64,000 nucleotides of DNA from Shimia aestuarii (GTDB taxonomy: Bacteria > Pseudomonadota > Alphaproteobacteria > Rhodobacterales > Rhodobacteraceae): assembly GCF_900114635.1 (NCBI RefSeq), contig NZ_FOTQ01000001.1, positions 620,001 through 684,000 of the forward strand. The letters are read 5' to 3'. Each line of letters begins with the position of its first letter. The stretch's first letter is position 1. A program made the position numbers and the translations under genes. Positions 22,075-36,953 of the stretch are shown one piece after another. Under the pieces are notes generated by a model. That model saw only the letters and a program-made list of their open reading frames with translations. It was not told the origin of the DNA and searched no databases.

Positions 22075-22148
22075 GGCGAGTTGGCGGAGTGGTGACGCAG
22101 CGGATTGCAAATCCGTGTACACCGGTTCGATTCCGGTACTCGCCTCCA
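22075..22148 (+). tRNA. tRNA-Cys (GCA anticodon)
   Basis: The 74 bases fold as a cloverleaf with acceptor stem GGCGAGT/ACTCGCC, anticodon loop ATTGCAAAT with GCA, the T-arm CCGGTTCGATTCCGG, discriminator T and an encoded CCA at 22146-22148. Its 3' half is the integration site of the element that follows. Confidence 0.95.
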
Positions 22149-22149
22149 A
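22103..22149. repeat. Left attachment repeat (attL) in tRNA-Cys
   Basis: The 47 bases from the anticodon stem to one base after CCA are identical to 35635-35681. This is the expected result of tyrosine-recombinase integration into a tRNA 3' end, with the tRNA restored by the element. Confidence 0.93.
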
Positions 22150-22165
22150 CTCACAAGCCACTGAA

Positions 22166-23026
22166 ATGGCTCACATAACTGAACGCGACGTTGTGTTGCG
22201 CGGGATGTCCACGGATTTTGAAGGGACACCCATGCGTATCGACCACGCGCTTGACGCTTACACCCACGATCATCTGCACTCGCTCAAAGGTGGAAACGAG
22301 CGACTCAATCAACTGAATCGGGTACTTGAATCCCATTCATGTTCCGACATGCACACGATCACCAATGTGGATTTGACCAACGCACTGAGTCGCTGGTCTG
22401 GATCGACAAGGAATCGGTATCGGGCCGCACTCACTCATTTCTGGAAATGGGGTCGCGCCCACGGATTCACCGATCTGCACCCGACGCTTCTTCCCGGCAA
22501 AGAGTCGCCGCGTGATCAGGTGCTATCCATGCGCCAGTTGCGCGCGCTCTACAACACAGCCGGGTATCGCGAGTCCTTCGAATGGGAGACCTACGGGCGC
22601 TTGCTGATCCTGACCGGGCAACGGCACGGGGATGTGATGAACTTTCACATGGAGCGCTTCAAGGATGGTGACATGCACCTGCCCACCAGCAAGAACGGCA
22701 CACCCCACATCGTCGCTCTGGGACCGCGCGGGCAGTCACTGGCCCAGTTTGCTTGCTTCGGGTTCAACATGGCCACCACGGCCCACTACAAACGTCGCTG
22801 GTTTCGTCGGGCCGGGGTGCCGCTGTCGTACCGCCTGCACGACATCCGGCGATCCTTCGCCACGCATTTGGCCGAAGCCGGGGAAGATGAAGCCGACATT
22901 GATCGGATGCTGAACCACTGCGCCAGTCAGACGGCCCGAGGCGTGGCGAGAACATACAATCGCGCCCGACGCTTGTCACAGCGCCGGGAAATCGCCCACC
23001 AATGGGAGAGGATGCTATTTGACTAG
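22166..23026 (+). CDS. Tyrosine recombinase / integrase of the element
   Basis: The ATG at 22166 gives 286 residues: an N-terminal SAM-like core-binding region (about 20-100) and a catalytic domain with Arg153 (LTGQRHGDV), Lys176, H225-x-x-R228 (LHDIRRSFATHLAE), His251 (LNHCASQ) and the nucleophile Tyr264 (ARTYNRA). All catalytic positions are present. The start codon is only 17 bases after the tRNA CCA, and the reading frame is open through the tRNA, so the gene may be expressed by read-through from the tRNA promoter. No excisionase of known type is adjacent. Confidence 0.93.
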   Translation: MAHITERDVVLRGMSTDFEGTPMRIDHALDAYTHDHLHSLKGGNERLNQLNRVLESHSCSDMHTITNVDLTNALSRWSGSTRNRYRAALTHFWKWGRAHGFTDLHPTLLPGKESPRDQVLSMRQLRALYNTAGYRESFEWETYGRLLILTGQRHGDVMNFHMERFKDGDMHLPTSKNGTPHIVALGPRGQSLAQFACFGFNMATTAHYKRRWFRRAGVPLSYRLHDIRRSFATHLAEAGEDEADIDRMLNHCASQTARGVARTYNRARRLSQRREIAHQWERMLFD

Positions 23027-23062
23027 GCGCGGGTCACGTCGCGCTTAGATCGAGGTGTCGGA

Positions 23063-23143
23063 TTTATCCTGCAATATCAATGACTTACGGACCGCATCGG
23101 GACGCTAGGATTTTAGCGTTTATCCTGCAATATCAATGACTTA
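23063..23143 (+). repeat. Pair of 25-bp direct repeats behind the integrase
   Basis: The identical 25-mer starting TTTATCCTGCAATATCAATG and ending ACTTA occurs at 23063-23087 and 23119-23143, 56 bases apart. A shorter match ATGACTTA lies just outside the right att at about 35689. They could be recombinase arm sites or a duplicated 3' end of the decayed gene next to them. Confidence 0.85.
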
Positions 23144-23830
23144 GGGGGTCGGGCTTTCGACTTGATGGTCATTCGGCGCGTGTTGGCATAGCCGGGGATC
23201 AGGTCGCCTTCCTGCGGCTCTGGTAGCACGCTTCCACATCTGGCGGTTTCCAATCCGCCAGAATCCACACCACCATTTTCCTCAGTGTTTTCAACGGGTT
23301 GGTCAGAGTGCGTAGAATCCTGCAAACGCAGGATATTACGCACCGTGCCTTCTGACACACCCACCGACTCGGCAATGGTGCGTTACGAGTTGAGGCGGCG
23401 CATGGCTTTGGTGTGACGGTCGGATTTAATAGGCACATTGTGCCCATTTCCCTCTGGTCGCCCTGCCTGTGGTGATCCGGTGTCACAACGCACCCAGATC
23501 GGGGCGGTCACGGTTGAGGCGGCGCATGGCTTTGGTGTCTGGCTGGTCGTTCAAGGTAGTAATACCTCCTTGCTCACGCGCACCGACCCGGCAATGGTGC
23601 GTTGCGGCAAGGTCGGGGCGGCGCATGGCTTTGGTGTCTGGGTCAGGTTTAGAGGGAGTATTACTACCTCTAACGTGTTGATTGCCCGCCGCATTCAGGG
23701 AGAGCGCGCCGTCACGGACCTGACTGGCAAGGTTGAGGCGGCGCATGGCTTTGGTGTCTTTGTCAGGTTTAGAGGGGGTAATACCCCCTCTAACATGGTT
23801 GTTGTTGTGTCCATGTGATCCAGCCACCGA
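23113..23830 (-). pseudogene. Decayed multi-repeat helix-turn-helix gene
   Basis: On the reverse strand the piece TIAESVGVSEGTVRNILRLQ is a good helix-turn-helix recognition segment, as in ParB-like or replication-control proteins of phages. It is separated by a TAA stop from a preceding DTKAMRRLN segment (about 23390-23414). Upstream the same two segments recur in degraded form in shifted frames, spaced by VRGGITPSKPD-like linkers. The tract therefore looks like a gene built of repeated modules that has lost its frame. A non-coding function of the repeats is the alternative. Confidence 0.5.
23391..23760 (-). repeat. Four copies of a ~24-bp motif with intervening hairpins
   Basis: The motif GGCGGCGCATGGCTTTGGTG recurs at about 23394, 23517, 23618 and 23737, with spacings of 123, 101 and 119 bases. 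The first and third copies share a longer upstream match (CGGCAATGGTGCGTT). Spacers after copies two to four contain palindromes: AGGTAGTAATACCT at about 23554-23567, TAGAGG...CCTCTA at 23650-23675, and TAGAGGGGG...CCCCCTCTA at 23770-23792. Spacers differ in length and carry coding-like remains. Confidence 0.85.
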
Positions 23831-23840
23831 CCCGGCAATG

Positions 23841-25448
23841 TCAGGTCGCCTTCCTGCGCACCGGGTAGCCCGCTTCCAGCGCGCGGGCAAAGGTTCCCTG
23901 TCCGCTGGCCATGGACTTGCTGAAATCGTTGCGCACGGCTTCCAGCGCCTGTCCGATGATCACGTGGCGTTCACCCTCGCGATCCTCAACCTGCACCTGC
24001 GCGCCCGTGTAATTGTGGATCACAACCGGGCTGGCACCGACACCAAGGTTCCCCGATCCGTCCCTTTGCAAAGGCACAATGGCCTCTGGACCCGCTTCGC
24101 CCATAAGCCCCGCACCGCCCGACATGGGGAAGAGTGTCGGACCGGACACGACACCGCCTTTGCTGAACCGCGACACCCCGGCGAGACCTTGAACGATGGA
24201 TTGCACAGTGTTTGTCGGGTTGCCGGGGATGCCGCCAAAAGCCGACATGAGAGTATTAACGATGATCGCCCGCACCATGATCTTGGCTAGGTCTTGCAGG
24301 ACCGAGCGCGCGAAGTCTTTGAACGCGAGTTCGCCTGTGACGAGACCGTCAACAAAATCATCCAGCGCGCTGGATGCCACGCCCGCAAAGGCATCGGTCA
24401 TGGACTGGCCGAACTGGTCCGCCTGTCGTTCTGCTTCGATCAGCTTGTCGATCACGCGCTGGACGTCATCGACGACATCACCGCCAGTGGCACCGCCACC
24501 GCCTGTGGTGGTGCCTGTGTCTGGGGCTGGTGGTCGGATCGTCTGGGGAAGATCGTATCGCCAGTCGCCGTATCCGCCGAACGCGTCCAGACCCATCGCT
24601 TTTTCAGCCTCGGATGCCGCCCGGATCAGACCTGCATATTCGTATGCGATCCCGAGGCGCTTGGAGAGTTCGTCGGTAATCGCTTTTTCACCTTTCCAGA
24701 TTTCATCCAAGCGCCCCGCAATTGATCCGTAGATTCCGAAAAAGCCGTTCAGCAACCCTTCGCGGGCTTCGAGCAGATCGTTGACGGCGCGGGCTTCCTC
24801 TTCGGCATTGAACTGCGCGGCAAGGTCCGCTTCGGCCTGTCGGATGGTGCGCAAAATCTCAATCCGCTCCGAGTTAAGTCGCAGCGTGTTCGTAGTGGTG
24901 CGTTCCTGCGCTTCGTTGATCCGCAGGCGCTCTTGTTCTGCGGCGATGATTTCGCGCAGGTTCTGGACTTCCCGGCTGTCACCGGACCGCAGGCGTTCTG
25001 TCTCGCGCACAAGGTCCGCCGTAGCCTTCTCGGCGGCTTCCAGCTTTTTGCGCAACTCGTCGGCTTCCTCAGAAGACTTGCCCAATTTCCCGGCGAACGC
25101 GGCGAGAAGACCTGTCGCGACCGTGAAGCCGATCCCCCACGGCCCCGCCATGAACGCGCCAAGCTGGTTGGCCTGCTGCGAAAAGGCCAGCAATGCGTTC
25201 TGGCCACCGCCGATCTGGACCATCAGATCACCGAACTGAACCCCGGCCTGCTGGGCAAAGCGACCGTTGGATTTTAATGCACGATTTGTGTTTGCGATCT
25301 GCTTCGTGAACGCCTGACCGCGCCTTTGTGACTCGTCAAACTTTCGGGATAACTGCCCGAGTTCCTTTTCAGCCGCATCCAACGCTTTGACCATGCGTTC
25401 AGCCCGGACATCAAGCGTCATGATGTGGGTGGTTTCAGTGATCTGCAT
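23841..25448 (-). CDS. Phage tail tape measure protein (lambda GpH-like)
   Basis: The ATG at 25448 gives 535 residues. The N-terminal half is coiled coil (ELGQLSRKFDESQRRGQAFT; DELRKKLEAAEKATADLVRE) with a hydrophobic segment around LGAFMAGPWGIGFTVATGLL. Near residue 330 there is a Gly/Thr-rich linker, and the C-terminus carries the lambda tail-length-tape-measure domain: FSKGGVVSGPTLFPMSGGAG, then LMGEAGPEAIVPL. It would set tail length and cross the host membrane during DNA entry. At about 535 residues it predicts a short tail if it acts as a ruler. It follows the 244-residue gene by one base. Confidence 0.85.
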   Translation of the reverse strand: MQITETTHIMTLDVRAERMVKALDAAEKELGQLSRKFDESQRRGQAFTKQIANTNRALKSNGRFAQQAGVQFGDLMVQIGGGQNALLAFSQQANQLGAFMAGPWGIGFTVATGLLAAFAGKLGKSSEEADELRKKLEAAEKATADLVRETERLRSGDSREVQNLREIIAAEQERLRINEAQERTTTNTLRLNSERIEILRTIRQAEADLAAQFNAEEEARAVNDLLEAREGLLNGFFGIYGSIAGRLDEIWKGEKAITDELSKRLGIAYEYAGLIRAASEAEKAMGLDAFGGYGDWRYDLPQTIRPPAPDTGTTTGGGGATGGDVVDDVQRVIDKLIEAERQADQFGQSMTDAFAGVASSALDDFVDGLVTGELAFKDFARSVLQDLAKIMVRAIIVNTLMSAFGGIPGNPTNTVQSIVQGLAGVSRFSKGGVVSGPTLFPMSGGAGLMGEAGPEAIVPLQRDGSGNLGVGASPVVIHNYTGAQVQVEDREGERHVIIGQALEAVRNDFSKSMASGQGTFARALEAGYPVRRKAT

Positions 25449-25449
25449 G

Positions 25450-26184
25450 TCACAAAATCCTCCTATTTGGTCCGCGACTGGTGAATTCACCAAGGCGGGA
25501 AATGACAAGTTGGGGTATCCGAGAGGGCCGTCCCGATGCGGTGCGATAGTCCGGGTGTCCGCCGATCTGGAAGCGCATCGAAACGCGGTTGCCCCAGCCT
25601 TCGGCCATCATCTTTTTCCAGACGGAATAGCCTGCGAATTGATCCCACGCGGCTTCCATTTTGCCAGCATGGAGCGCGTGGTTGCTGATGATGATCTGAT
25701 CGAAAGTCCCGCTCAGTCGGGCAAGTTCACCGGGCGAGATTTCCCGACCATCGACATGGACGCGCATCCCGGCGAGATAGCGCCCGCTCTCGCGCCATAT
25801 CTGCGCGCGGGTGGTCCATTCGATAAAGGCGGTCTGCGCGGCCTGTAACACCCGCGCCGCGCCCTGCGGGTTCTCGGCAAGGACGATCCGCCCACCAAGT
25901 GACACATTGCGCACAGGGCGCGCAGGAGACCCGTCGACAAGCTGGACCACTTCGTCCTCGGGTTGGAATTCGCCTTGGGCGCGGTAGTGCTTCACGCCCT
26001 GCACGTAGCTGTTGACGTGAAAGGCGCGCATCGCGTCGACGATGCCCGGGACCACCTGCATGATCAGCGCACGACGCACCAGCTTGCCACCGAGGTTGAC
26101 GACGGGATGTTTGCGCTTTGCTGACCATTTGTAGAGCGGTGGCGGTCGGTATCCTCGCTTGTATGCGCGCTGGGGAATGTTCAT
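25450..26184 (-). CDS. Element structural-region protein, unknown (244 aa)
   Basis: The 244-residue basic protein has no signal or membrane segment. It contains VNLGGKLVRRALIMQVVPGI, a beta-rich middle (VSLGGRIVLAENPQGAARVL) and a C-terminal stretch ending in SRLGEFTSRGPNRRIL. Its place between small overlapping genes and the tape measure suggests a tail-assembly or head-tail role. I do not recognise the family. Its start overlaps the preceding stop by ATGA. Confidence 0.7.
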   Translation of the reverse strand: MNIPQRAYKRGYRPPPLYKWSAKRKHPVVNLGGKLVRRALIMQVVPGIVDAMRAFHVNSYVQGVKHYRAQGEFQPEDEVVQLVDGSPARPVRNVSLGGRIVLAENPQGAARVLQAAQTAFIEWTTRAQIWRESGRYLAGMRVHVDGREISPGELARLSGTFDQIIISNHALHAGKMEAAWDQFAGYSVWKKMMAEGWGNRVSMRFQIGGHPDYRTASGRPSRIPQLVISRLGEFTSRGPNRRIL

Positions 26185-26420
26185 TGCAGGACGCGCTCCC
26201 CAAATGACAGGATGCGCCGCAGAAGTTCTTCGCCATCACCCACGCGGACGCCTTCGATGTGGTGCGCCAACGCCACCGGATCAGGGAAGGGATCGGACCG
26301 CACGAGACGCCAGACGTCCCGACATAGGGCCGTCACGTGACGCGCGAATGCTGCGTCATCCTCAGCGGCCCAAGCAAGGCGCAGGGCTATGCCGATTTCA
26401 TCCTGCAGCACGATCCGCAT
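26181..26420 (-). CDS. Small element protein (79 aa), tail-chaperone position
   Basis: From ATG 26420 the protein reads MRIVLQDEIGIALRLAWAAE and continues as helical sequence to GEELLRRILSFGERVLQ. It overlaps the upstream 59-residue gene by 23 bases and the downstream gene by ATGA. Two small overlapping genes just before the tape measure is where many phages encode tail assembly chaperones G and GT; that role is inference from position. I see no slippery heptamer. Confidence 0.6.
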   Translation of the reverse strand: MRIVLQDEIGIALRLAWAAEDDAAFARHVTALCRDVWRLVRSDPFPDPVALAHHIEGVRVGDGEELLRRILSFGERVLQ

Positions 26421-26577
26421 CAATCAGTTGGAGAATGGTGAGCCTGCGCTCGTTCAGGTCACGCATGGTCTCGCTGACGTCAGCGCCGGGGGTCTTCTGC
26501 ATCGCCGCGCCGTCGAGTAGCGCCTGTCTGATCAGGTCGAGTAGCAGACTGTTGACGGTTTCCAGATCGGGATTCAT
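26398..26577 (-). CDS. Small element protein (59 aa)
   Basis: The sequence MNPDLETVNSLLLDLIRQAL continues to DVSETMRDLNERRLTILQLI and stops at 26398. It is helical and acidic. The ATG overlaps the stop of the upstream 92-residue gene (ATGA), which supports translation. Function unknown. Confidence 0.6.
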   Translation of the reverse strand: MNPDLETVNSLLLDLIRQALLDGAAMQKTPGADVSETMRDLNERRLTILQLIDADRAAG

Positions 26578-26852
26578 GTCAGCGCTCCTTTCAACAGTTT
26601 GGCCAACGCCGTCGGACCATTTGTCTCGGCGTAGACCTTTGCCGCGCCGATGTATTGCCCAGCATCGGCAGGGGTGGCCTTGCGGCCTTCAGGCGCGACC
26701 CAGACCGTCGCCTGCGCAGGCAGGTTCAGGTCAACGAGATACGCGCCGATGGCGGCGTTCAAAGCGCCGGGGTGCGTCAGTGTGGCGCGGTGGACGCCGT
26801 TGATGCTGACGCGGGCCGTGATGGCGTCGTCATGGTCGACGCTGATGATCAC
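26574..26852 (-). CDS. Small element protein (92 aa)
   Basis: A GTG start at 26852 overlaps the capsid gene stop as GTGA and gives 92 residues (ISVDHDDAITARVSINGVHR onward), predicted beta-rich in the first half and helical in the second (ADAGQYIGAAKVYAETNGPT). Directly after a capsid gene this is the place for a head-completion, decoration or head-tail connector protein, but no family is recognised. An ATG further upstream is possible but would extend deep into the capsid gene. Confidence 0.6.
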   Translation of the reverse strand: MIISVDHDDAITARVSINGVHRATLTHPGALNAAIGAYLVDLNLPAQATVWVAPEGRKATPADAGQYIGAAKVYAETNGPTALAKLLKGALT

Positions 26853-28162
26853 CACGATACCCCCGTCAGTTCGAAGACCGTGCCTTCGCGCAACGCGCCC
26901 CAGCTTGCGGGCTGGATGAAGCGAATGAGCGTTTCCCAAGTTTGGAATGCGCTGCGGGTCGTTGGGTCGACATCGTTCTCGGGATCGTCGCTCATGACGA
27001 TGGTTGCGTGTTCCGACAAGTCCACCTCGGGCGCGTCGATCCCCAGCATCCAGCTATCCAGATCGACGGCGATGACCTGATCAGCGGGCGCGTTATCGGA
27101 CACAATCAACTGAATGCCCGCGAGTTGGCCCTTGTCCAGATCAGCGGCGAATGGTGACACACCAAGATCGGTCGTCTTCATCCGCAGCGCCGCGATCAGC
27201 AACGGATTGATCAGGATGCGGGCCGACCGGGCGCGGATTGACAACATACCGGACAACAACCAGCGCAGATCGGTGAATACGTCGGCAATGGTTCCGGTTC
27301 CCGCTGCGGGTTGCGAGGTTGCATCGAACAACAGGCCAGCGGGTCGGACACCTGAAACACCCGGCTGAGCATCCAAGAAATACCCGTCGAGCGCCGTCGC
27401 CGTGTCGGACAAGATCGCATCTCGGACCAGATCGACAATTTGAGGGCGCGATGCGCGTTTAATCTCGTTGCTGACGGCAGCGATCACGCCCAACTTAAAT
27501 CGGTTGGCGACCGCCGATCCGAACTGCCCAGATTTGACCGGGATCATCCGCCCTTCCCCGACCCACTCACCGGGGAGATTGTCGCGCAGGCGACGGGGAT
27601 GGGAGACCGCATTTTGGCCGTTGAAGTTGAGTTGACGAGCCACATTGGCCACCTGCGGGATCAGGGCCGTGGGAGCCGCATCCGCAAAGAATTGGCCCAG
27701 TCCGGTCGACGTCAGTTCCTGTGCCCATCCGGCTTGGGCGGTATAGGCCGGGTCGGTTGCCGCTTTCTGCGCGTAACGGCGGACGAGACGGTTTTGTTCG
27801 CCGGGGGCGACGTCTTCCAAGAACTTTGCGATGGGGGTCTTGTCCATGCGTCGAGTCAACTCGGCGCTGATCGCCAGAGCAAGCACGTCCAAGGGCTTGG
27901 GAGTCTTCACCGTTGCCTTGGCCTGTGCAGGTGCCTTCAGGCTGGCTTCGAGCCGCTGAGGACGATCCAACATGCGCCGCACAGACGCCAATTCGGCCTC
28001 AACAGCGGGCAGGCGCTTCACTGCGGCTTCCGCGTTTTTCAATTCCTCGTTGGCAAGGTCCAGCGCGCGTTCGGCGCGCATTCGGTCCCTCTCGTTCTTG
28101 ACCTTATCTCGCAAAATCGGGTTTTCGATTTCGCCGATCACGGCGGTGCTATCTTTGGGCAT
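26849..28162 (-). CDS. Major capsid protein, HK97 fold
   Basis: The 437-residue protein starts with about 70 residues of coiled coil (ILRDKVKNERDRMRAERALD; KNAEAAVKRLPAVEAELASV), like the delta/scaffold domain of HK97-type capsids. The mature-like part follows: WVGEGRMIPVKSGQFGSAVA, VIAAVSNEIKRASRP and a long P-domain-like section ending in ALREGTVFELTGVSW. This layout is that of phage major capsid proteins of the HK97 family. No prohead protease gene is present, so removal of the N-terminal segment, if any, must be done otherwise. Confidence 0.82.
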   Translation of the reverse strand: MPKDSTAVIGEIENPILRDKVKNERDRMRAERALDLANEELKNAEAAVKRLPAVEAELASVRRMLDRPQRLEASLKAPAQAKATVKTPKPLDVLALAISAELTRRMDKTPIAKFLEDVAPGEQNRLVRRYAQKAATDPAYTAQAGWAQELTSTGLGQFFADAAPTALIPQVANVARQLNFNGQNAVSHPRRLRDNLPGEWVGEGRMIPVKSGQFGSAVANRFKLGVIAAVSNEIKRASRPQIVDLVRDAILSDTATALDGYFLDAQPGVSGVRPAGLLFDATSQPAAGTGTIADVFTDLRWLLSGMLSIRARSARILINPLLIAALRMKTTDLGVSPFAADLDKGQLAGIQLIVSDNAPADQVIAVDLDSWMLGIDAPEVDLSEHATIVMSDDPENDVDPTTRSAFQTWETLIRFIQPASWGALREGTVFELTGVSW

Positions 28163-28165
28163 TGT

Positions 28166-28378
28166 TCAGTCTCCTGTGATCACGGCGCGCAGAGCCGCGC
28201 GGATGCGGTTTTGTCCGGTCTCGGACTTTTCTTCGGCCACCTCGCGCCAAACGCGCCGGGTAAAGGATGCGGCTTTTTTCCGGGCATCCGACACCGGACA
28301 TCCAGCGGCCAGCAATTTGCCCTTGGCCTGTACGTAATCGGCGCGGATCGCGGCGCGGAGTCGGTGATCATTTCGCAT
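28166..28378 (-). CDS. Small basic element protein (70 aa)
   Basis: The protein MRNDHRLRAAIRADYVQAKG continues as a basic helical chain to RIRAALRAVITGD and ends three bases before the capsid start. Its start overlaps the previous gene by 11 bases. No family recognised. Confidence 0.55.
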   Translation of the reverse strand: MRNDHRLRAAIRADYVQAKGKLLAAGCPVSDARKKAASFTRRVWREVAEEKSETGQNRIRAALRAVITGD

Positions 28379-28631
28379 GACGAGACTCCTTTGCTCGTTT
28401 GGCCATGGCGCTCAGATCATCAAGTGTGAATTCATCGGCCTGTTTTTCGAGCGCGGCTTCGGCATCGGCCTGCGCGTGTTCCAGCGTCTTTTCCAAGGTT
28501 GCAACGCGGTCGCGAAGAGGCTTCACGTGTTTGACGATCAGTTCACCCATCGCCCTCGCGATGGCTTCCATCTGGGGCTGGGTCAAGACGGGTTCGGCCT
28601 TGCGCCGATATGGATTTCGGTACTCGGTCAT
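28368..28631 (-). CDS. Small coiled-coil element protein (87 aa)
   Basis: The sequence MTEYRNPYRRKAEPVLTQPQ leads into a coiled coil (RVATLEKTLEHAQADAEAAL) and a charged end. The start overlaps the preceding stop by ATGA. It may be a scaffold-like or regulatory protein given its position two genes before the capsid; this is inference. Confidence 0.6.
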   Translation of the reverse strand: MTEYRNPYRRKAEPVLTQPQMEAIARAMGELIVKHVKPLRDRVATLEKTLEHAQADAEAALEKQADEFTLDDLSAMAKRAKESRHAK

Positions 28632-29176
28632 GCGCGGGCCTTCCGTGATGAGTTCGCTGCGGCCATGTATTTTTGCCGCAGGTCTTTGATGTCGGGATGT
28701 TGTGGATCGAAACCAGCACCGGGCAGAGCGGCCAGCAACTCGCCATGAAGCGCCGTCGCGGCCAGATCGGCCTCGGCATCCACAAGGCGGCGCTCGGCGC
28801 GCTCGGCGGCGTCTCGGGCGCGCTTGGCGGCGTGTTCCAGCTTTTCGATCAGGACAGGATTTGCGCAACCCAGCGACAAACACCGCTTCGCCGCCCCGAT
28901 GACGGGCGACGGGTGGAAAGCGCCGGGTTGCTTGAAGCGCAGGATATGGACTGCGGCCTCAAATTCTTCGGCAAGGGAGAGGGTATCTTCGACGGCCTGC
29001 TCTGCGGCTTTCAGACGGTCGGTGAAGATGGATGTGATTTTTTGCCGGGTCTCGGTCGCGCCTTCGCGGCCTGCTTGTTCTGCTTTGGAAGCCGCTGCCA
29101 GTTCTCGGCGGATGTAGCCTGTGGATTTGATCAGCTTGCGGGCCAATGTCGGCGCGGTGCGGACGGTCAGTGTCAT
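28628..29176 (-). CDS. Coiled-coil element protein (182 aa), unknown
   Basis: The ATG at 29176 gives 182 residues, strongly helical: AEQAGREGATETRQKITSIF, then LIEKLEHAAKRARDAAERAE. Near the middle are two cysteines (KRCLSLGCANP). It is the first gene of the tightly overlapping capsid block. An alternative start lies at 29191. No match to portal, terminase or protease families is visible. Confidence 0.6.
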   Translation of the reverse strand: MTLTVRTAPTLARKLIKSTGYIRRELAAASKAEQAGREGATETRQKITSIFTDRLKAAEQAVEDTLSLAEEFEAAVHILRFKQPGAFHPSPVIGAAKRCLSLGCANPVLIEKLEHAAKRARDAAERAERRLVDAEADLAATALHGELLAALPGAGFDPQHPDIKDLRQKYMAAANSSRKARA

Positions 29177-29313
29177 ATTTCTCGGTCCCATTTGGTCGGG
29201 TGTTCGACGGAACCGGGCGGATCAGCAAAGCGTCTTCGCACCCGGCCCGTCGCGGTCAGGGTGCACGATGTAGGTGATTCGCACAAGATGTTGGGTTTTG
29301 GTCGTACCTAAAC

Positions 29314-29499
29314 CTATATATTGTGTTTCACGAGGTCCGAAATGACGTCAGGGTCAAGGTTCAGCATGGCGGCGACCGCAGGGCCGGATGTTTTCAGCCA
29401 ATGGATTGCGGCGGCATCTCCGCGCCGTGCGGCCTTTATTTGCGCTTCGAGCGCTGCGGACCACAAACGCGCACAGGCCGTTGCATCAATGTGATTCAT
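29314..29499 (-). CDS. Small element protein (61 aa)
   Basis: The sequence MNHIDATACARLWSAALEAQ continues to AAIHWLKTSGPAVAAMLNLD and ends VISDLVKHNI. It overlaps the upstream 72-residue gene. The pattern of a helix plus a short helix-turn-helix-like end is compatible with a small DNA-binding protein, but this is weak. Confidence 0.5.
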   Translation of the reverse strand: MNHIDATACARLWSAALEAQIKAARRGDAAAIHWLKTSGPAVAAMLNLDPDVISDLVKHNI

Positions 29500-29704
29500 A
29501 CGCTTCCTTCCATCGTTCAAAAATGTCCAAGCTGGATCGCGCCGTGTGAAAGATCACCTCGGTTTCCAGACAGACGATTCGATGTGTGTGGTGGTCGATG
29601 CGCTCGTATTTGGTCGGAGCGCCGACATGGCGCGCAATCATCCGCCGCGCATGTTGGATCACCCCTAAGGCGCGGGCGTCGGCCATGAGTCGATCTAGTT
29701 CCAT
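29486..29704 (-). CDS. Small element protein (72 aa)
   Basis: From ATG 29704 the protein reads MELDRLMADARALGVIQHAR and continues to IVCLETEVIFHTARSSLDIF. A TTG start at 29764 is possible but has its purine-rich site only one base away. The gene ends inside the start of the 61-residue gene. Family unknown. Confidence 0.5.
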   Translation of the reverse strand: MELDRLMADARALGVIQHARRMIARHVGAPTKYERIDHHTHRIVCLETEVIFHTARSSLDIFERWKEAYESH

Positions 29705-30055
29705 TTCGTTCCGATATAGGGCGGGCTGTGCGCGTCGGGGCGCGCGTAGACCGAGTATAATCAAACCTTCCAGTGACGGGAAGGTTGGTCATTTTGCCCG
29801 TTCGTTTTTGAGATTCACTCCCCCGTGCGGTAGCGCGCCCCTTAATCTCAGATACGACCCACCCGCCCCCCGTCGAGCCGATCCCGCTCTGACCTCGGTC
29901 TGGTGCTTGGCTGGTGTCGGGGTGGTGTGGGTCTGGTGCCGGAATTGAGATGGATATGGGGGATATGCCGGGGAGTGTGCTGCGCTGACGCCCCGCTTCG
30001 GTCCGCCCTCGGGACGATAGCGGTCGTGCTATAGGTGGTTCGGTCCTATAGCGGC
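29705..30055. other. Non-coding gap behind the primase-helicase gene
   Basis: About 350 bases hold no convincing gene. They contain the phased TGGTG repeats (29901-29944) and two CTATAG palindromes at about 30030 and 30048. The segment could be a replication origin plus the promoter of the downstream small genes. Confidence 0.5.
29901..29944 (+). repeat. Four 11-bp-phased iterons, candidate replication origin
   Basis: TGGTG occurs at 29901, 29912, 29923 and 29934, exactly 11 bases apart, in units TGGTGCTTGGC, TGGTGTCGGGG, TGGTGTGGGTC and TGGTGCCGGAA. Direct repeats in helical phase are typical of initiator-binding iterons. The array begins 112 bases beyond the stop of the element primase-helicase gene. 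Confidence 0.6.
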
Positions 30056-33000: not shown

Positions 33001-33409
33001 CAGGCCACGGTCCGCCCATGTCCGCTATGCGCTCGGCAACGTGATCGGGCATCGCCTTGGTGTCGAAGTCCAAAAGGAACCACGCCAGCCGATCCGGTTT
33101 GAAGTGCAGGTGATCGGTCGACCGGGCGATGACGTCGCCAGTGGCGTGGCGCTTCGTGGTCAATGCCGCCGACGCCTTGCCCGACTTCAGTGATCCAAGG
33201 GCAATGGCTTGCTGTTGTGTCAGCCCATCCAGCAACCGGGCCAATTCGACCGGGGTTCGGGCGTAGACTTCCTGCGCAAGCCCTTTATGCATGTTCGCGC
33301 TAGGTGTGCTGACAACACCATCGGGTGTTTGGGTGAAGGTCTTGCACAGCGGCTTTCCGTGACTGGTCAGTAATGTGACAGTCGCGTTCAAATCGACTAT
33401 TGTGTCCAT
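30056..33409 (-). CDS. AEP primase fused to Fe-S-type helicase (1117 aa)
   Basis: The N-terminal third looks like an archaeo-eukaryotic primase: the acidic pair D114-x-D116 (WFLLDFDTKAMP) and a histidine motif RRSDGIHVYV near residue 174. The centre carries Walker A at 492-499 (GALGVGKT) and a DExx box at 626 (VVIFDERPRD). Between them are four cysteines, C558, C579, C582 and C588 (CEKCPKRNQC), placed as in XPD/DinG helicases that hold a 4Fe-4S cluster. The last 450 residues are unassigned. It is the likely replication initiator/primase-helicase of the element. No frameshift is seen. Confidence 0.75.
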   Translation of the reverse strand: MDTIVDLNATVTLLTSHGKPLCKTFTQTPDGVVSTPSANMHKGLAQEVYARTPVELARLLDGLTQQQAIALGSLKSGKASAALTTKRHATGDVIARSTDHLHFKPDRLAWFLLDFDTKAMPDHVAERIADMGGPWPALCAIWPELAHAASVVRPSSSDGVTGADGAVRRSDGIHVYVLMHLTCPMSETLKTLQARAWVLGLGWLMISKAGDFLVRSIVDTTVGSPERLVYEAPPILGPGVARYPRPTIIQDGIALMGLPTHEADKAKADVLIAQAKRGLADRAAEIKEKHMAERVADLVERKKIAPKLARKIIEQRVNGCVLDDRDTLQIDTGEWVAVGDILDDPGTWDRRGIPDPIEGLEYGPDKATLMLTPRVGHPTDRPVIVSHAHGKKTVFRFKRYEMTAPPDLGPHYPAPTEPRQEAIKAHGRTVEDWADAAFKTVRASRDVKALEEMDEYDRAVAVGEIMGRYGLDHTPRSYLTRNSNAPRWMLTGALGVGKTETILRVLVENPDVTALFLVPDHQMAEEVAERYLAMGGDRAMVLRGRAMVDPEVEGEKMCLMAHRAAQVLKHGLSVRSALCEKCPKRNQCGYMRQARFLSGARAVFAPHDWAWFQLPGDFKPDVVIFDERPRDFGINVHDLPVDWLLSDLVFDGGDAFETMDALSARHHILHPLMRTLHYAARLYPWAMLAVLRQYGWTRDHLAEAVRVVDLFGARGVLRGCRNFVMHDLCKVDEVLCAPPRPIQEFKALLMALEAEIDLGHLNPTTVRLTSDDSFRITTTKTLANVPNAPFLHLDGTGDEALANAWFGALDHRNHKVERNAYVTQVTGHSFSKAYMTAGGGEWQGEWKDRSEAFQADLWGVVRADEGAAVFSYKATKPDGWFGALRGLDRWANHPSGYVIGRNQPGPRDVEHLAAPFAVRAGHVIQSSEYGQEWRGIRMRDGSVTPQLVDVHPDPWVQRVLEQIRERESEQAMDRLRLIHNPQRKSIYLLMPIVLDQTVDRVIDWKDFVRGGERIERAIRRYGFLPMSGKECVRLFPDIWDNRMTANRDLEPLQGATAETFVTFGNKESLITECYQCLYQRNAHYAHSVKAFVFATAATARERIAEIVGELRSFELLE

Positions 33410-33434
33410 ATCGGACTCCTCTATCCGGTGTAAT

Positions 33435-33474
33435 GACCTGTCCGGGCGGGGGTGGCTCGGACGGGTCTTTTTTT
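33435..33474 (+). terminator. Plus-oriented hairpin with T-run
   Basis: GACCTGTCCG and CGGACGGGTC form a stem with one mismatch, followed by seven T residues. In the plus direction this is a textbook intrinsic terminator, although the genes on both sides run on the minus strand. It sits between the 155-residue gene and the primase-helicase gene and would stop antisense transcription. Confidence 0.6.
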
Positions 33475-33940
33475 ATGCCAGTCTCTGAATCTCGCCCGTC
33501 GCCCGTGCATGTGCGAGATTGATCTGGCCGCGATCCAGCAAATCAGCAATGACACACAGTTCGGTCAGCAAGCAGAGCGCGGTCCCCTGACCGACCCATG
33601 CCCGGTAGACGTCCAACGTCTTCACGTATTTCTTGGGCAAGAACGGTCTACCGGACAAAAGCGTCATGCTCTGCGCCTGTGGTATCACCTCGGGTCCGTG
33701 TCCGACCTCATATTGCCGCGCTCGGACGCGGGCGAACACAACATCCAGATGCACCCGCGCATGATCGGCGTCGCCCCTTTCCAACAGGCCATGAACGGCG
33801 AACAAATCCCACGCGAACGCGGCGGCATGATCCGCCCCGCAGCGCGCCGCAAAGGCCCGTGCCTGTTCCTGAAGATCATCCGGCAAAGCCCGGTTCAAGC
33901 TGGTCAGTTTATAGACCTCAGTTCCGACTCGTTTGATCAT
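33473..33940 (-). CDS. Element protein (155 aa), unknown
   Basis: The ATG at 33940 overlaps the helicase gene stop (TAATG). The 155-residue protein is helical and rather acidic/hydrophobic (LPDDLQEQARAFAARCGADH; ALCLLTELCVIADLLDRGQI). It lies between the two helicase genes, so a replication accessory role is likely. No family is recognised. Confidence 0.6.
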   Translation of the reverse strand: MIKRVGTEVYKLTSLNRALPDDLQEQARAFAARCGADHAAAFAWDLFAVHGLLERGDADHARVHLDVVFARVRARQYEVGHGPEVIPQAQSMTLLSGRPFLPKKYVKTLDVYRAWVGQGTALCLLTELCVIADLLDRGQINLAHARATGEIQRLA

Positions 33941-35286
33941 TATGCAAACCCCACTGCGATATGTTTCGGGCGTGAAAGCGCCACATAGGCCAATCTGTTC
34001 CACAGTTCCTGCGATCCGGTCCGCATTGTGCGGGCCGCGTTGACCGACACCATGTCAACAAAGCAGACATCCACGGTCCGGCCCTGTGACTTGTGGATCG
34101 AACACACGAACGGGGCGCGGATGTCGGCAAGGTGGAAATAGTAGGCCATATGGAGCCTGTTCTCTTTCCGGTCATCCTCGGAAAGCGCCTCGTGGTGACG
34201 CCTTTCCCGTTCAACGGTAAACGCTCTTTCATCGGGCCGCATGGTCCAGACCGGGAAGGTTTTCCCGGTCTCGGTGACGCGGATTTTCAGTTCCCAAACA
34301 TCGTTGGAGCCAAAGGCGTGATGACCGACAACGCGGGTTGCGCCGACCACAACACCCTCCTGACCGTTCTCCAAGGCGACGTAGCTTTCAAACGGGTCTG
34401 CGGTCACGTCTTTGAAGTCCATCTTCTTGTCGCGGACCAGACGCATTTGCCGCTTGAATTCGAGATAGTCGGAAAACCGATCCGCCCGAAGACACAAGCC
34501 GGACGCAACAATCGGTTCATTCATCAAAAACGGCCATTCCGCCGCCGCGTCCCCGTAGAAGTCCATGCGGAACTTCTGGTTCAAGCTGTTCACCGACCTG
34601 TTGAAATAGCTGACCATCAGGACGTTATGACCTTCTTCCCGGTATTTCCGAAAATTCCGCATCGCCCCGTCTTTGGTGTCGAGATAAAAACCACCCGCCC
34701 CGCTGGTCACGTTGCTGGTCGGGAAACTTATCCTCGCGTCCTCACCGTGCCGATATTGCAAAGCGAGATTGAGCAACGGGTTGTCATTTGCCTGTCGCAT
34801 GACCTGTTGCAAGCGGATGACTTTCACCCCGCCCCGTGCGGTAAACCAGCGGGTGAACATCTGGTCGGCTCCCACCGGGGGGAGTTGCGCCTCGTCGCCC
34901 AGAAAGATCATCCGCCCCGTTTGCAACATGAGAGTCGCGCGGGTCAGGTGTTTGTCCGGCATCATCGACGTCTCGTCAAAGATCGCGGTTGCCTGCCCGT
35001 TGACCTTACCGTTGGTGTAGAACTCACCTTCGCCGTCCGGCACGATGCCTAATCCCTTGTGGTAGGTCATCGCTTGAAGTCCGGTGATGTCTGTCATCAC
35101 GCGCTTGGCGGTATGTGTTGGAGCCATCAAGGTGGGCGCTTCGACCACATTTTTCACGTGGTCGATCACGGTCGATTTCCCAGAACCAGCCGATCCGAGA
35201 ATAACCAGAATCTCGCCCCGCCTCAGATCGCGCGCGGCCTGCACCGCCTCATTCTGGGCAGGGTTGAGAACGATGGTGTCACTCAT
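33940..35286 (-). CDS. SF1 helicase, Dda/RecD-like
   Basis: The 448-residue protein shows the SF1B motifs in order: Q-motif-like LNPAQNEAVQAA, Walker A GSAGSGKST (Lys37), AIFDETSMM, LGDEAQLPPVG, a UvrD-like C-terminal part with SIHKSQGRTVDVCFVDMV and RLAYVALSRPKHI. Length and motif spacing fit phage Dda-type 5'-3' helicases. It is translationally coupled to the ribbon-helix-helix gene before it (ATGA) and the 155-residue gene after it. Confidence 0.87.
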   Translation of the reverse strand: MSDTIVLNPAQNEAVQAARDLRRGEILVILGSAGSGKSTVIDHVKNVVEAPTLMAPTHTAKRVMTDITGLQAMTYHKGLGIVPDGEGEFYTNGKVNGQATAIFDETSMMPDKHLTRATLMLQTGRMIFLGDEAQLPPVGADQMFTRWFTARGGVKVIRLQQVMRQANDNPLLNLALQYRHGEDARISFPTSNVTSGAGGFYLDTKDGAMRNFRKYREEGHNVLMVSYFNRSVNSLNQKFRMDFYGDAAAEWPFLMNEPIVASGLCLRADRFSDYLEFKRQMRLVRDKKMDFKDVTADPFESYVALENGQEGVVVGATRVVGHHAFGSNDVWELKIRVTETGKTFPVWTMRPDERAFTVERERRHHEALSEDDRKENRLHMAYYFHLADIRAPFVCSIHKSQGRTVDVCFVDMVSVNAARTMRTGSQELWNRLAYVALSRPKHIAVGFA

Positions 35287-35447
35287 ACCGCACCCCGCAA
35301 AAGATCGGTTTCGCGCTCCATCTTCACCAGATACGCGGCGACGGCTTGCCGCACGATAACGGTACGGGGGACTTCGAGCCGGGCGGACAGATCATCGACC
35401 GCTTGGCGTTGTTTGTCGGTCAGTGTGACCGCGATTGTTTTGCTCAT
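35283..35447 (-). CDS. Ribbon-helix-helix regulator (54 aa)
   Basis: The protein MSKTIAVTLTDKQRQAVDDL continues ARLEVPRTVIVRQAVAAYL, a CopG/Arc-like ribbon-helix-helix pattern: a short strand then two helices. It is first in the minus-strand operon and overlaps the helicase start by ATGA, so it may autoregulate replication or act as copy control or excision factor (inference). Confidence 0.7.
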   Translation of the reverse strand: MSKTIAVTLTDKQRQAVDDLSARLEVPRTVIVRQAVAAYLVKMERETDLLRGAV

Positions 35448-35565
35448 TTTCTCACTCCTTGAGTTGTCCCCCAAGGTTATGAGCAAAATTCACGTTCAAC
35501 CACCTAGCCCAAGGCCCATAATTCTCATATTCTTCCTATATAACAAAGCACTAGAGGTTATCAGA

Positions 35566-35685
35566 ATGCTAGACTTGGAACAACTGATGCGGGAAGAGGC
35601 GCGGGCCATAATCCGTGAACAACTTCGGCAGAACGATTGCAAATCCGTGTACACCGGTTCGATTCCGGTACTCGCCTCCAAATAA
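35566..35685 (+). CDS. Micro-ORF running into attR (39 aa)
   Basis: The ATG at 35566 gives a charged helix (LDLEQLMREEARAIIREQLR) whose last 15 residues are encoded by the attachment repeat and the first chromosomal bases. After excision the C-terminus would change. There is no strong ribosome site, although AGAGG lies 13 bases upstream. It may be the 5' part of a larger gene in the circular form; the joined frame passes from this N-terminus through the att core into the integrase frame. Confidence 0.35.
   Translation: MLDLEQLMREEARAIIREQLRQNDCKSVYTGSIPVLASK
35635..35681. repeat. Right attachment repeat (attR)
   Basis: A perfect 47-bp copy of the tRNA-Cys 3' half (22103-22149), including TTCGATTCC and CCA. 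It lacks the 5' half of a tRNA and is therefore an att remnant, not a gene. Confidence 0.93.
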
Positions 35686-35909: not shown

Positions 35910-36953
35910 TGACCTGAGCCCCAAGTTTCCTCCGCCTAGTGGAGAGTCCTTGGGGTTTGTGTGATGGCCTTACGCGGCCAGTTGTCCATGTTTGTATTCT
36001 CAGAAAATTATCTTGGCGTCAGACTTCCCAACGCCGAGTCTGGTCTGTGATTGTTGTAATCCTCCTGCCACGGCTTCAGAGTTTCCCGAGGTTCGGCCAG
36101 TGAGCTAAAGAGCGTTTCATTGAGGCATTCATCGCGCAGCTTGCCGTTGAGACTTTCCATGAACGCGTTCTGGGTAGTTTTCCCGGTGCGATGTAATGCC
36201 AGTCGATCCCGGTGTTTTGCACCCTTCAAATGGTAGGCATGCTGGTGAACTCGTAGCCACTGTCAGACAGGATCGTTCCCGGAATTCCGTGCTCAGCGAT
36301 AACCCGGTTCAGTTTCAGCGTGACCCGCAGCCCATACAGAGACGTGTCGGCACCAGGGCCAAGTTCTCGCGACAGATGCGCCTGAGCTTCTTGTGGTTCC
36401 CCTCGAAGCCCTCGCGCCGGACCATCACGTGGATTCGGCGATGACCAAACCGGCGGCGCTCCTTCGATACGCGCTTGATGGCATCCCGCAGATTGCCATC
36501 CTCCGACTGGCGCGATCGATATCGCACCGTCGAGCGTTCCACGCTCAATGCAGCGCACGCCCGACGCTGGCTCGCCAGGTGGACTTTCATCAGATGCGCC
36601 ACCGTTTGCGCTTGGCATCGGGTGTCACCACTTTTGCGCGTTAACATCCCTAAGCATCGCGTTGTCGGGAATCTGTTCGGCCATCATCTTCGCCAAATTC
36701 GCGTTTTCGGCCTCCAGCGCCCTCAGCGGTTTTGCATCGGCGACCTCCACGCCGCCTTATTTGCGTCGCCATTTGTAGAACGTCGCGCCGCTGATCCCGT
36801 GTTTGAGGCACAGCTCACCGGTCGGCAAGCCCGCTTGGCGCTCCTTCAAAACGCCATTAAGTGCTTCGCTGAAACGGCTTCTCTTCATCGTCCGTCTCCT
36901 CAGTTGGAGAACAGGCTAACCACAAATCGAGGGCTTTTCAGGGGAGAAGGTCA
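35910..36953 (-). mobile_element. Degenerate IS3-family insertion sequence
   Basis: Imperfect terminal inverted repeats are visible: TGACCTGAGCCCCAAGTTT at 35910 and, on the other strand, TGACCTTCTCCCCTGAAAA ending at 36953. At 1044 bp the element is shorter than intact relatives. No target duplication is seen next to the ends. It separates the element at tRNA-Cys from the polysaccharide locus. Confidence 0.7.
36008..36888 (-). pseudogene. IS3 transposase OrfA/OrfB remnants
   Basis: OrfA begins at 36888 (MKRSRFSEALNGVLKERQAG, then ISGATFYKWRRK) and hits a stop before its usual end. OrfB pieces follow in different frames: ACAALSVERSTVRYRSRQ, RFGHRRIHVMVRREGFEGNH, the DDE-region piece GIPGTILSDSGYEFTS, and TTQNAFMESLNGKLRDECLN ending in NNHRPDSALGSLTPR. 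Several frameshifts and a loss of the first catalytic part show that it is inactive. Confidence 0.85.

Follow-up and report, generated by a model that had tools for sequence, protein, structure and literature searches.

An integrative element at a tRNA-Cys gene

The window, a 64,000-nucleotide stretch of the genome of Shimia aestuarii (Rhodobacterales), contains an integrated element at positions 22103-35681 that carries an integrase, a primase, a Dda-like helicase, an HK97-type capsid protein and a lambda-type tape measure protein (Table 1). The integration site is a tRNA-Cys (gca) gene, which remains intact, and the starts of attL and attR are 13,532 bp apart. An earlier interpretation of this DNA (the sequence-only reading) had claimed perfect 47-bp att repeats around a 13.5 kb element; both copies are indeed exact, and an exact repeat of this length is far beyond chance. 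The integrase, HK97-type capsid, lambda-type tape measure, Dda-like helicase and ribbon-helix-helix regulator that it named were each matched by Pfam or PHROG profiles. The claimed primase-helicase was upheld for the primase part (phrog_16593), but the helicase half matches only ResIII at 0.23, so the compound name rests on reading motifs.

Table 1. Features of the integrated element, in window coordinates
Feature	Position	Strand	Evidence
tRNA-Cys (gca)	22075..22148	+	ARAGORN
attL, 47-bp exact repeat over 3' part of tRNA-Cys	22103..22149	.	repeat search
Tyrosine integrase, likely start ATG 22232	22163..23026	+	phrog_1 1.6e-26, PF00589 1.4e-10; start from gene caller
Repeat-rich stretch with broken copies of a small gene (family F13) common to L012	23030..23840	.	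repeat and family analysis
Tape measure protein (535 aa; open frame from 25508)	23841..25448	-	PF09718 7.1e-11, phrog_1716 8e-25
p244, fast-changing, adjoins tape measure, just before it	25450..26184	-	41/30/40% identity to L010, L012, L052
p80, candidate tail assembly chaperone	26181..26423	-	profile matches in 5/5 tape measure-bearing, 0/7 tape measure-less elements
p59, small conserved cassette protein	26398..26577	-	88-98% identity in sisters
p93, conserved, directly after capsid	26574..26855	-	92-93% in sisters; 24-26% in L015, L017
HK97-type major capsid protein (437 aa) without a fused protease	26849..28162	-	PF05065 5.2e-12, phrog_617 4.9e-25; trees
p70, conserved cassette protein	28166..28378	-	83-84% identity in sisters
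p87 (family F1), conserved just before capsid	28368..28631	-	F1 in 9/11 elements, plus L062
p187, 182 aa from likely start, all-helical	28628..29176	-	profile matches in 11/12 elements
p68, conserved small protein, likely start 29499	29314..29520	-	79-91% identity in sisters
p92, conserved small protein	29486..29764	-	70-80% identity in sisters
Primase with helicase-like C-terminal part, 1117 aa	30056..33409	-	phrog_16593 2.5e-29, residues 11-247 only
p155 (ORF 176 aa, to 34003)	33473..33940	-	28-30% over ~145 residues in sisters, weak conservation
Dda-like SF1 helicase, 448 aa	33940..35286	-	phrog_325 5.3e-55
Ribbon-helix-helix regulator, likely start 35447	35283..35486	-	PF12651 8e-6
attR, 47-bp exact repeat	35635..35681	.	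repeat search

Two general hallmarks of satellites are found here, namely, site-specific integration by the element's own integrase (47-bp att, tRNA-Cys) and a partial set of virion genes (capsid and tape measure; TerL, portal, protease and major tail not found). P4-like satellites are defined by the sid/delta/psu/alpha gene set, for which the window element gave no Pfam or PHROG match at E values up to 1, except for Psu at 0.12. The best family match of its ten other small ORFs in the Pfam and PHROG profiles was no better than E 0.008. The repeat-rich stretch at 23030-23840 contains four repeats of ~40 nt, palindromes and broken small-gene copies. Three additional open frames, 319, 329 and 497 aa in length, run opposite to called genes of the element.

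The virion cassette

In the run of nine genes from the tape measure gene to p187, six of the eight junctions overlap by 4-26 nt, in agreement with the overlapping starts and stops claimed earlier, and the remaining two are gaps of 1 and 3 nt.

The p80 gene is present in exactly those family members that encode a tape measure, and by this co-occurrence and its position the protein is a candidate tail assembly chaperone, which would be comparable to the chaperone beside the tape measure in the PLE satellites, but it matched no chaperone family and had no Pfam match. For p244, a role as tail-completion or neck protein is an unproven guess: there was no Pfam or PHROG family match and no usable structure model, and an hhalign comparison with one gp10/Neck1 protein was negative. 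The model of p187 (pLDDT 81) consists of five helices, and a fold search with it gave no match at E 0.001 or below; we consider p187 a candidate scaffold or size-setting factor. Two of the 11 profile matches to p187 are partial, and L014 is the one element without a match.

Sister elements and a family in Rhodobacterales

The same genome holds two sister elements, L010 and L012, which brings the occupied sites to three: tRNA-Cys, tRNA-Arg and dusA. The three sisters are 13-14 kb long and differ in their integrases and replication genes (the primase of the window element is 28% identical to its L012 counterpart), whereas all three share the virion cassette and its gene order. Within the cassette, the capsid cores and p244 have diverged, whereas the neighboring genes are near-identical; the tape measure is 88% identical to that of L010 and 59-60% to that of L012. 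The NG86 dN/dS ratio was calculated for 10 of the 11 cassette genes (p92 was left out) in all three sister pairs. The ratio was 0.09-0.56 in 26 of these 30 comparisons and 0.60-0.76 in the other four, which comprise all three p59 pairs and one p93 pair, with few changes in each. Thus, the cassette is under purifying selection in most sister comparisons.

Nine further capsid-bearing relatives were found in addition to the two sisters, which brings the family to 12 elements (some of them partial) from 8 Rhodobacterales genomes. Their capsids fall into a single clade, with bootstrap support of 95, or 96 once the viral contig L101 is included. The elements are integrative and mostly 12-15 kb in size, although no clear integrase was found within the stretch read for L016 and L053, and the L013 capsid is truncated. 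Their replication proteins include VapE-like, DUF3987 and DUF5906 types, which, like the TerS-like and defense genes of some members described below, are typical of satellites. Five of the 12 elements, spanning about 12.9-14.8 kb between the repeats, encode a tape measure, and the five proteins form one clade (support 100) apart from the long phage-type and the GTA-type ones. The tape measure is missing from seven elements, and the tail part is therefore optional; three of the seven (L014, L016 and L062) contain a TerS-like gene detected by profile (phrog_5601, 0.0016, for L062). Much the same reduced gene set, with intact frames, is present in L051 and L052 of another genus, with p244 absent from L051. 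With its own genome counted in each sample, p187 occurs in 4 of 25 genomes of the genus and in at least 3 of 390 order, at least 3 of 394 family and at least 1 of 385 class genomes, the latter three figures being based on a maximum of 8 scored candidates per genome; the element family is rare in the sampled genomes.

Deletion of the packaging and portal genes from a prophage could produce a defective remnant with a comparable gene content. A suitable ancestor is plausible, given the G646 prophage, which combines a related, protease-fused capsid with a portal, TerL and an 811-aa tape measure, and the stretch at 23030-23840 does hold broken, duplicated gene pieces. However, a similar reduced set with intact frames recurs in three elements of one genome as well as in L051 and L052, the sister dN/dS is mostly well below 1, the five tape measure-bearing elements fall in the size range given above, and overlaps link the genes. 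A defective prophage is thus very unlikely and is already largely refuted by the sisters. Conversely, the view of the sequence-only reading that the set is selected rather than eroded agrees with the sisters, the relatives and the mostly low dN/dS.

Missing packaging genes

Pfam and PHROG profiles recognized no terminase, portal, protease or major tail protein in the window element. None turned up in 13 elements (the 12 capsid-bearing ones and one Sinorhizobium element) when phmmer and tblastn were run with phage and GTA sequences of TerL, portal, protease and major tail protein; these queries were single sequences, which very distant relatives could escape. Selected large proteins of the relatives were also searched by HMM for terminase, portal and protease; none of the 12 capsid-bearing elements has a recognizable TerL, portal or protease. 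The sequence-only reading, in which these genes and the major tail gene were not recognizable, is upheld in this respect. A terminase and portal at the corresponding position in related elements, which would have spoken for a plain deletion in the window element, appeared neither in the 12 elements nor in the Sinorhizobium one, in searches that were partly single-sequence.

A self-sufficient small phage, with portal, terminase and protease diverged beyond recognition, would also account for the ten small proteins that match no known family. Portal and TerL are normally larger than 300 aa, however, and the only called ORFs of at least 300 aa in the window element are the tape measure, capsid, primase and Dda-like helicase genes, none of them unassigned; the single-sequence queries for TerL, portal, protease and major tail in the 13 elements also argue against such a phage. 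Size already makes it appear unlikely, and we regard this possibility as exceedingly improbable.

Comparison with known satellites

The element shares with the PLEs of Vibrio cholerae a satellite-encoded tape measure (matched here by PF09718 and PHROG tail families). PLEs lack a capsid gene of their own and use the helper coat protein, their capsid-remodelling protein being a scaffold, whereas the element has an HK97-type capsid gene; by their descriptions, PLEs also differ from the element in host and helper. As described in PMC12987554, PLEs contribute a tape measure and a tail chaperone of their own, experiments showed that their chimeric tails are about 10 nm shorter than those of the helper, and PLE11 virions contain the helper's capsid proteins; a PLE-encoded protein is described as remodelling the stolen capsid (PMC10945586). 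Until these PLE rulers were reported in 2026, all well characterised dsDNA satellites were held to hijack phage tails, according to the same report (PMC12987554).

With cf-PICIs, the element has in common its own shell, that is, its own major capsid protein, and dependence on a helper for the missing virion parts. According to PMC10690885, the genes of cf-PICIs cover protease, portal, connectors, both terminase subunits and HNH, so that the helper provides only tails. The element has no terminase, portal and protease of its own (a TerS-like gene alone occurs in three relatives), and its need for a helper would not be confined to tails, given that packaging genes are missing too and that it has its own tape measure; the borrowed half is therefore nearly the reverse of that in cf-PICIs. 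Putative tmp genes are also described for some cf-PICIs (legend of Extended Data Fig. 10 in PMC12987554). Together with the PLE tail genes, they correct the earlier claim that capsid-forming satellites lack tail genes. Tycheposons and VEIMEs, put forward in the same reading as the nearest concepts, give way to PLEs and cf-PICIs because tail genes are known in PLEs and putative tmp genes in some cf-PICIs.

Among other marine satellites of tailed phages, the minimalist PICMI of Vibrionaceae have no capsid-remodelling genes, whereas the element has a capsid. VEIMEs are defined by recovery from virions, and tRNA sites and capsid-assembly genes are present in some tycheposons and VEIMEs. Both are proposed marine satellite families (PMC11389934); their likeness to the element is drawn from descriptions.

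Three further loci resemble the element in part. L093 (Ancylobacter pratisalsi pLGM) has genes for a capsid, a protease, a Neck1-type protein and a tape measure of 658 aa next to an integrase gene. Its 12.7 kb stretch, which ends inside the integrase and for which the PLSDB gene table is incomplete, has neither a terminase nor a portal annotation; its capsid groups with phages, not with the element family, and its tape measure best matches a different family, phrog_10574. L101 has TerL and a protease, yet its capsid is nested in the element clade. G646 has a phage gene set, and its capsid is related to the element clade via L101.

Satellite tape measures as such have been published for PLEs (2026), but their combination with an own capsid and no packaging genes looks new. 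If this is true, a second family, in another bacterial order, with its own shell and ruler and no motor would make control of head and tail size a recurring strategy. Such elements also offer a natural test of which virion parts are bound to one genome (shell, ruler) and which may come from another (portal, motor, tail tube).

Proposed life cycle

An element with its own shell protein and ruler and no DNA-packaging motor would probably form mixed particles that borrow the rest from an infecting virus; particle formation itself is predicted from the gene content. The most probable interpretation, in our judgment, is a family of phage satellites that supply shell and ruler and rely on a helper for motor, portal, protease and all other tail parts. 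Upon infection of the Shimia host by a tailed helper phage, the element would excise via its own integrase, be copied by its primase and helicases, and then express the virion cassette. It would contribute the shell protein, the candidate helical scaffold p187, the tape measure and the candidate chaperone p80, and the helper would contribute portal, prohead protease, terminase, tail tube and tail tip. The resulting chimeric particle would have a satellite-defined, probably small head built on the helper portal and filled by the helper motor; its tail would come from the helper but be assembled on the shorter satellite ruler. The more specific proposal that the satellite dictates both particle dimensions, with its own shell and a shorter ruler with matching chaperone, while the motor, portal, protease and tail tube are all stolen from the helper, a near-reverse of cf-PICIs, could equally well prove right or wrong. 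The hypothesis is testable because one genome holds three sisters with diverged capsid cores and p244 and near-identical neighboring genes.

Alternatively, the element could be an anti-phage island, in which capsid and tape measure act as decoys that poison or mis-size phages and so protect the host, with spread being rare or achieved by other means. Relatives do carry true defense genes (Shedu in L014, 2.5e-163; a DRT reverse transcriptase in L017, 1.6e-147), capsid and ruler proteins of foreign origin would upset the assembly of a helper, and the viral_contigs scans, in which most queries were single proteins and only close relatives detectable, returned no recognized element of the family. 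However, the element retains its integrase, att sites, primase and helicases, the sisters at three sites with swapped replication genes fit active spread, and PLEs provide a precedent for a satellite ruler inside the satellite's own particles (PMC12987554). Interference and packaging are mutually compatible. We therefore consider a purely defensive island unlikely and retain the satellite interpretation.

Ruler lengths and helper candidates

The tape measures of the five elements are 535-596 aa long, compared with 678-841 aa for long tape measure-like frames, presumably of prophages, in the relatives and 811 aa in G646, a difference that would fit the hypothesis of the sequence-only reading that the satellite resizes both head and tail of a helper. 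The host genome yielded no helper siphophage. The viral contig L101, with TerL (PDB 6z6d, 1.8e-113), a visually assigned protease and the nested capsid, plausibly hints at a helper lineage; its position also means that the capsid clade is not satellite-only. In G646, TerL, portal, connectors and tape measure follow the canonical order up to the contig end after the tape measure, and the protease-fused capsid matches that of L101 at 29-32%.

The host GTA is another conceivable helper, from which the element would borrow portal, protease, motor and tail tip, giving in return a bigger shell and a longer ruler. RcGTA-type GTAs are fixed in the chromosome without an integrase, unlike the element, and the host GTA occupies a separate locus (L030). 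The GTA cluster contains the sole match in the genome to the portal family PF04860, the one covered by the search, and, apart from the sister proteins, nothing in the genome except its 219-aa tape measure was found to be related to the element tape measure (39-40% over ~131 residues). In the tape measure tree, however, the GTA group does not include the element clade, the element and GTA capsids have no significant BLAST similarity (E 0.76), and many siphophage rulers (442 phage records) likewise match the C-terminal region of the tape measure. It is thus highly unlikely that the GTA serves as helper, and a tailed phage remains the favored partner of the satellite.

That no recognized element of the family came out of the eight viral_contigs scans, most of which used single proteins and so reach close relatives only, counts against the satellite interpretation: four of them gave no match, and two others returned L101 only. 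One search yielded four contigs with rulers of 1028-1217 aa; L097-L100, also recovered in the scans, encode rulers of 576 or 924 aa, in a phage-type context in L097 and L100.

Organization and integration site of the element

The element and its relatives form a real, multi-copy family of satellite-like elements maintained by selection. Shimia belongs to the Roseobacteraceae, a marine group; the genome measures 4.23 Mb, and the contig with the element is chromosomal. Its proposed integration at tRNA-Cys with perfect 47-bp att sequences holds: the tRNA gene is the site, and an exact 47-bp repeat is present at both bounds. The integrase gene occupies the left end on the plus strand, whereas the minus strand encodes, from the right end, an RHH regulator, a Dda-like helicase, p176, a 1117-aa primase (without a match in a PDB search) and a virion cassette of 11 genes: p92, p68, p187, p87, p70, capsid, p93, p59, p80, p244 and tape measure protein (TMP, or ruler). 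In the run from p187 to TMP, genes overlap at six of the eight junctions, as mapped with a simple codon-usage caller rather than an annotation pipeline, so that start positions are uncertain. A stretch of repeats common to the window element and its sister L012 may serve in regulation, replication or packaging, or may consist of gene debris.

Coordinates of the features discussed
Feature	Location	Remarks
Element	window 22103-35681	
tRNA-Cys	window 22075-22148	integration site
Repeat stretch	window 23030-23840; L012 2870-3464	four ~40-nt repeats, palindromes, broken or duplicated small-gene pieces
IS3-like transposase pieces	window 36008-36647	beside attR; translations read by eye
Shedu	L014 7307-8533	2.5e-163
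DRT reverse transcriptase	L017 6736-8433	1.6e-147
Related-element remnant L086	G014:C31 1-8000	C-terminal ruler scrap, TerS-like frame, integrase N-terminus
Intein in large terminase	L101 596-3274	PDB intein matches
RcGTA-type cluster L030	G000:C11 about 261-276 kb	
Podovirus-like prophage or remnant (L040, L041)	G000:C18 225-239 kb	TerL and portal-like genes; roles read by eye, TerL by search
Terminase match	window 59970-61463	
Weak terminase match	G000:C18:1470788	
Likely second mobile element	window 59970-64000 and L042 to about window coordinate 65858	

Sister elements and exchange of modules

A search of the same genome with the window capsid yielded two further copies, L010 and L012, each 63% identical, in which the 11 cassette genes from p92 to TMP follow the identical order. 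Taken alone, the short repeats of the two sisters are weak evidence. The sequence-only reading that the gene set is selected, not eroded, was borne out across the three sisters: NG86 dN/dS was 0.09-0.56 in 26 of 30 gene-by-pair comparisons covering 10 of the 11 cassette genes, and 0.60-0.76 in the remaining four, all with few changes; the ratios are rough for several p68, p244 and capsid comparisons and for one TMP pair, where dS exceeds 1.

Divergence is unevenly distributed over the cassette. Identity between the window element and its sisters is 88-98% for p59, p80 and p93, 63% for the capsid and 30-42% for p244. Within the capsid, the N-terminal ~70 residues are nearly the same in all three elements and the core is divergent in the window copy; within TMP, the C-terminal third is near-invariant across the three, and the window and L010 proteins share a near-identical middle but differ in the first ~100 residues. 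This pattern looks like recombination, which may exchange the parts expected to contact helper proteins.

The wider family

Capsid or p187 searches identified nine further elements, for a total of 12 in eight genomes. The p187 profile matches 11 of the 12. Counting the window's own genome, p187 is present in four of 25 genomes of the genus, at least three of 394 of the family, at least three of 390 of the order and at least one of 385 of the class, the last three counts being based on no more than 8 scored candidates in each genome.

Sister elements (L010, L012) and further elements of the family
Element	Genome	Site and repeat	Features
L010	G000	tRNA-Arg; 14 bp	VapE-type helicase and methylase replacing the window primase and Dda helicase; other integrase
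L012	G000	start of dusA; 11 bp	DUF3987 primase replacing the window primase and Dda helicase; other integrase
L013	G009		capsid truncated; p187 match partial
L014	G016		no p187 match; TerS-like protein; Shedu
L015	G005		capsid-bearing element
L016	G005		TerS-like protein; no clear integrase in stretch read
L017	G007		DRT reverse transcriptase
L051	G337	tRNA-Cys, as in the window; 44 bp	TMP and p80
L052	G337		TMP and p80
L053	G259		partial element; p187 match partial; no clear integrase in stretch read
L062	G594		TerS-like protein (phrog_5601, 0.0016)

The TMP and p80 profiles match the identical five elements, namely, the window element, L010, L012, L051 and L052, and a TerS-like protein is encoded in three of the seven TMP-less ones. 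A rule that an element carries TMP or TerS but never both fits all 12 elements but was abandoned, given that the remnant L086 combines a ruler scrap with a TerS-like frame.

Some capsid-bearing loci lie outside this set. Two capsid-only elements or fragments, L057 of Sinorhizobium sp. K101 and L095 on a Cupriavidus oxalaticus plasmid, fall outside the group of phage capsids in the tree; L057 has a tRNA-Lys repeat of 49 bp. The Ancylobacter pratisalsi plasmid pLGM (L093) encodes a capsid of another clade, a protease, Neck1, a tape measure and an integrase, with no terminase or portal annotated, and is possibly an independent case of the same design.

Packaging genes, defence cargo and small cassette proteins

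As in the window element, TerL, portal and protease genes were not recognizable in the relatives: single-sequence queries with TerL, portal, protease and major tail proteins identified none in the 12 elements or the Sinorhizobium element, and no relative carrying terminase and portal was found among them. HMM scans of the relatives covered selected proteins. The protease query, which also contains part of a capsid, gave two weak matches (both 0.002), one in L014 within the capsid part of the query and the other in the L017 capsid gene. Among ten candidate cargo proteins tested for defence functions, Shedu and a DRT reverse transcriptase were recognized, and the L010 methylase weakly matched a type II methyltransferase model (3.2e-5).

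The small cassette proteins gave few matches. An N..PYA..E motif pointed to p244, the fast-changing protein encoded before TMP, as HK97-gp10/Neck1; this assignment was rejected, hhalign being negative against both Ancylobacter gp10/Neck1 and a GTA (gene transfer agent) protein at the terminator position. A tblastn search of INPHARED with the L052 copy of p244 gave no match, a PDB profile search nothing useful, and the structure model was unusable (mean pLDDT 38). The model of p187, a candidate scaffold, was usable (pLDDT 81), with no fold match in PDB or BFVD at E <=0.001 and no meaningful match of the sequence to PDB. The candidate tail assembly chaperone p80 had no Pfam match.

Comparison with described satellites

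As reported in PMC12987554, PLE carries tape measure and chaperone genes, its chimeric tails are 10 nm shorter and transfer is lost on tmp deletion; a figure legend there mentions some cf-PICIs with putative tmp genes. In PMC10690885, the defining genes of cf-PICIs are those for capsid, protease, portal, connectors and HNH together with both subunits of the terminase. Satellite families are listed in PMC11389934, and satellites with tail-assembly inhibition systems are described in PMC11364771. Charybdis elements (PMC12324425) were considered but rejected, being without an HK97 capsid. Titles and abstract openings on satellites of Rhodobacterales, Rhodobacteraceae or Roseobacter, or on satellites with capsid and tape measure, did not describe the family, within a literature that mostly excludes subscription journals. 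The proposed division of labour between the element family and its helper looks novel; the elements are probably satellites and would form chimeric particles.

Relation to phages

In five known phages with related capsids, the gene order is TerL, capsid, portal, with the protease fused to the capsid or encoded by a separate gene before it. A prophage with a related capsid in genome G646 has the order TerS, TerL, protease-capsid, portal, connectors, tail completion, tail proteins and an 811-aa ruler, after which the contig ends; some of these roles come from BLAST matches to Rhizobium phage RHph_X2_26 and GTA, weak in the case of TerL, and the others from gene position. On the IMG/VR viral contig L101, TerL (PDB 6z6d, 1.8e-113) contains an intein and is accompanied by a TerS-like gene and by a protease recognized by eye; the L101 capsid shares 44-47% identity with the capsid of L052.

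In the capsid tree, the element clade including L101 is split from other phages and GTA (bootstrap 96), and within it L101 pairs with the L014/L051-L053 group at a bootstrap of 82, with 73 at the next node. A first tree had suggested a satellite-only clade, but the addition of L101 placed a phage within it. The capsid is thus shared with, or was taken from, an L101-like phage lineage, which would be the best lead to the helper. A further viral contig scan found only L101 itself, and four others, besides the tape measure scans described below, found no relative.

All five tape measures of the elements fall into a single clade (bootstrap 100) outside the GTA-type and long phage-type rulers; these labels derive from frame length except for the host's own GTA, L080 comes from another family of the class, and the rows for L086 (best ORF a chance match) and L087 (same place as L074) are to be disregarded. 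Rulers span 535-596 aa in the elements (535 aa in the window), 214-252 aa in the GTA type and, measured as longest reading frames, 678-841 aa in the long phage type of relatives. Judged by these lengths, a tail built on an element ruler would reach some two thirds to three quarters of the length set by a long phage-type ruler. Among viral contigs, the TMP query gave 27-28% matches in L044-L047, whose rulers of 1028-1217 aa are therefore phage-type, and the L051 TMP matched L097-L100 at 35-37% in the ruler N-terminal part only (gene maps were made for L097, L099 and L100; L098 was read for its 576-aa ruler).

Candidate partners in the host genome

The single PF04860 portal match in the host genome lies inside a GTA cluster, presumably of the RcGTA type by its gene order. 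The tape measure of this cluster has 219 aa and is similar to that of the satellite in its C-terminal part. As a source of the element tape measure, GTA receives no support from the ruler tree, and as a source of the capsid it was rejected, there being no similarity between the capsids. Terminase matches fall in the GTA, in the podovirus-like prophage, at the right end of the window and at three weak sites (on C6, C9 and C18). No siphophage helper was seen among the portals (PF04860) and terminases (phrog_2, PF03237) of this genome, which does not establish its absence. In the likely second mobile element at the right end of the window, the terminase-like gene exceeds the PF03237 cut-off by 25.7 bits and is preceded by a small gene; the element further carries a ParB/methylase-like gene and, on the opposite strand, a large recombinase, the names being taken from translations read.
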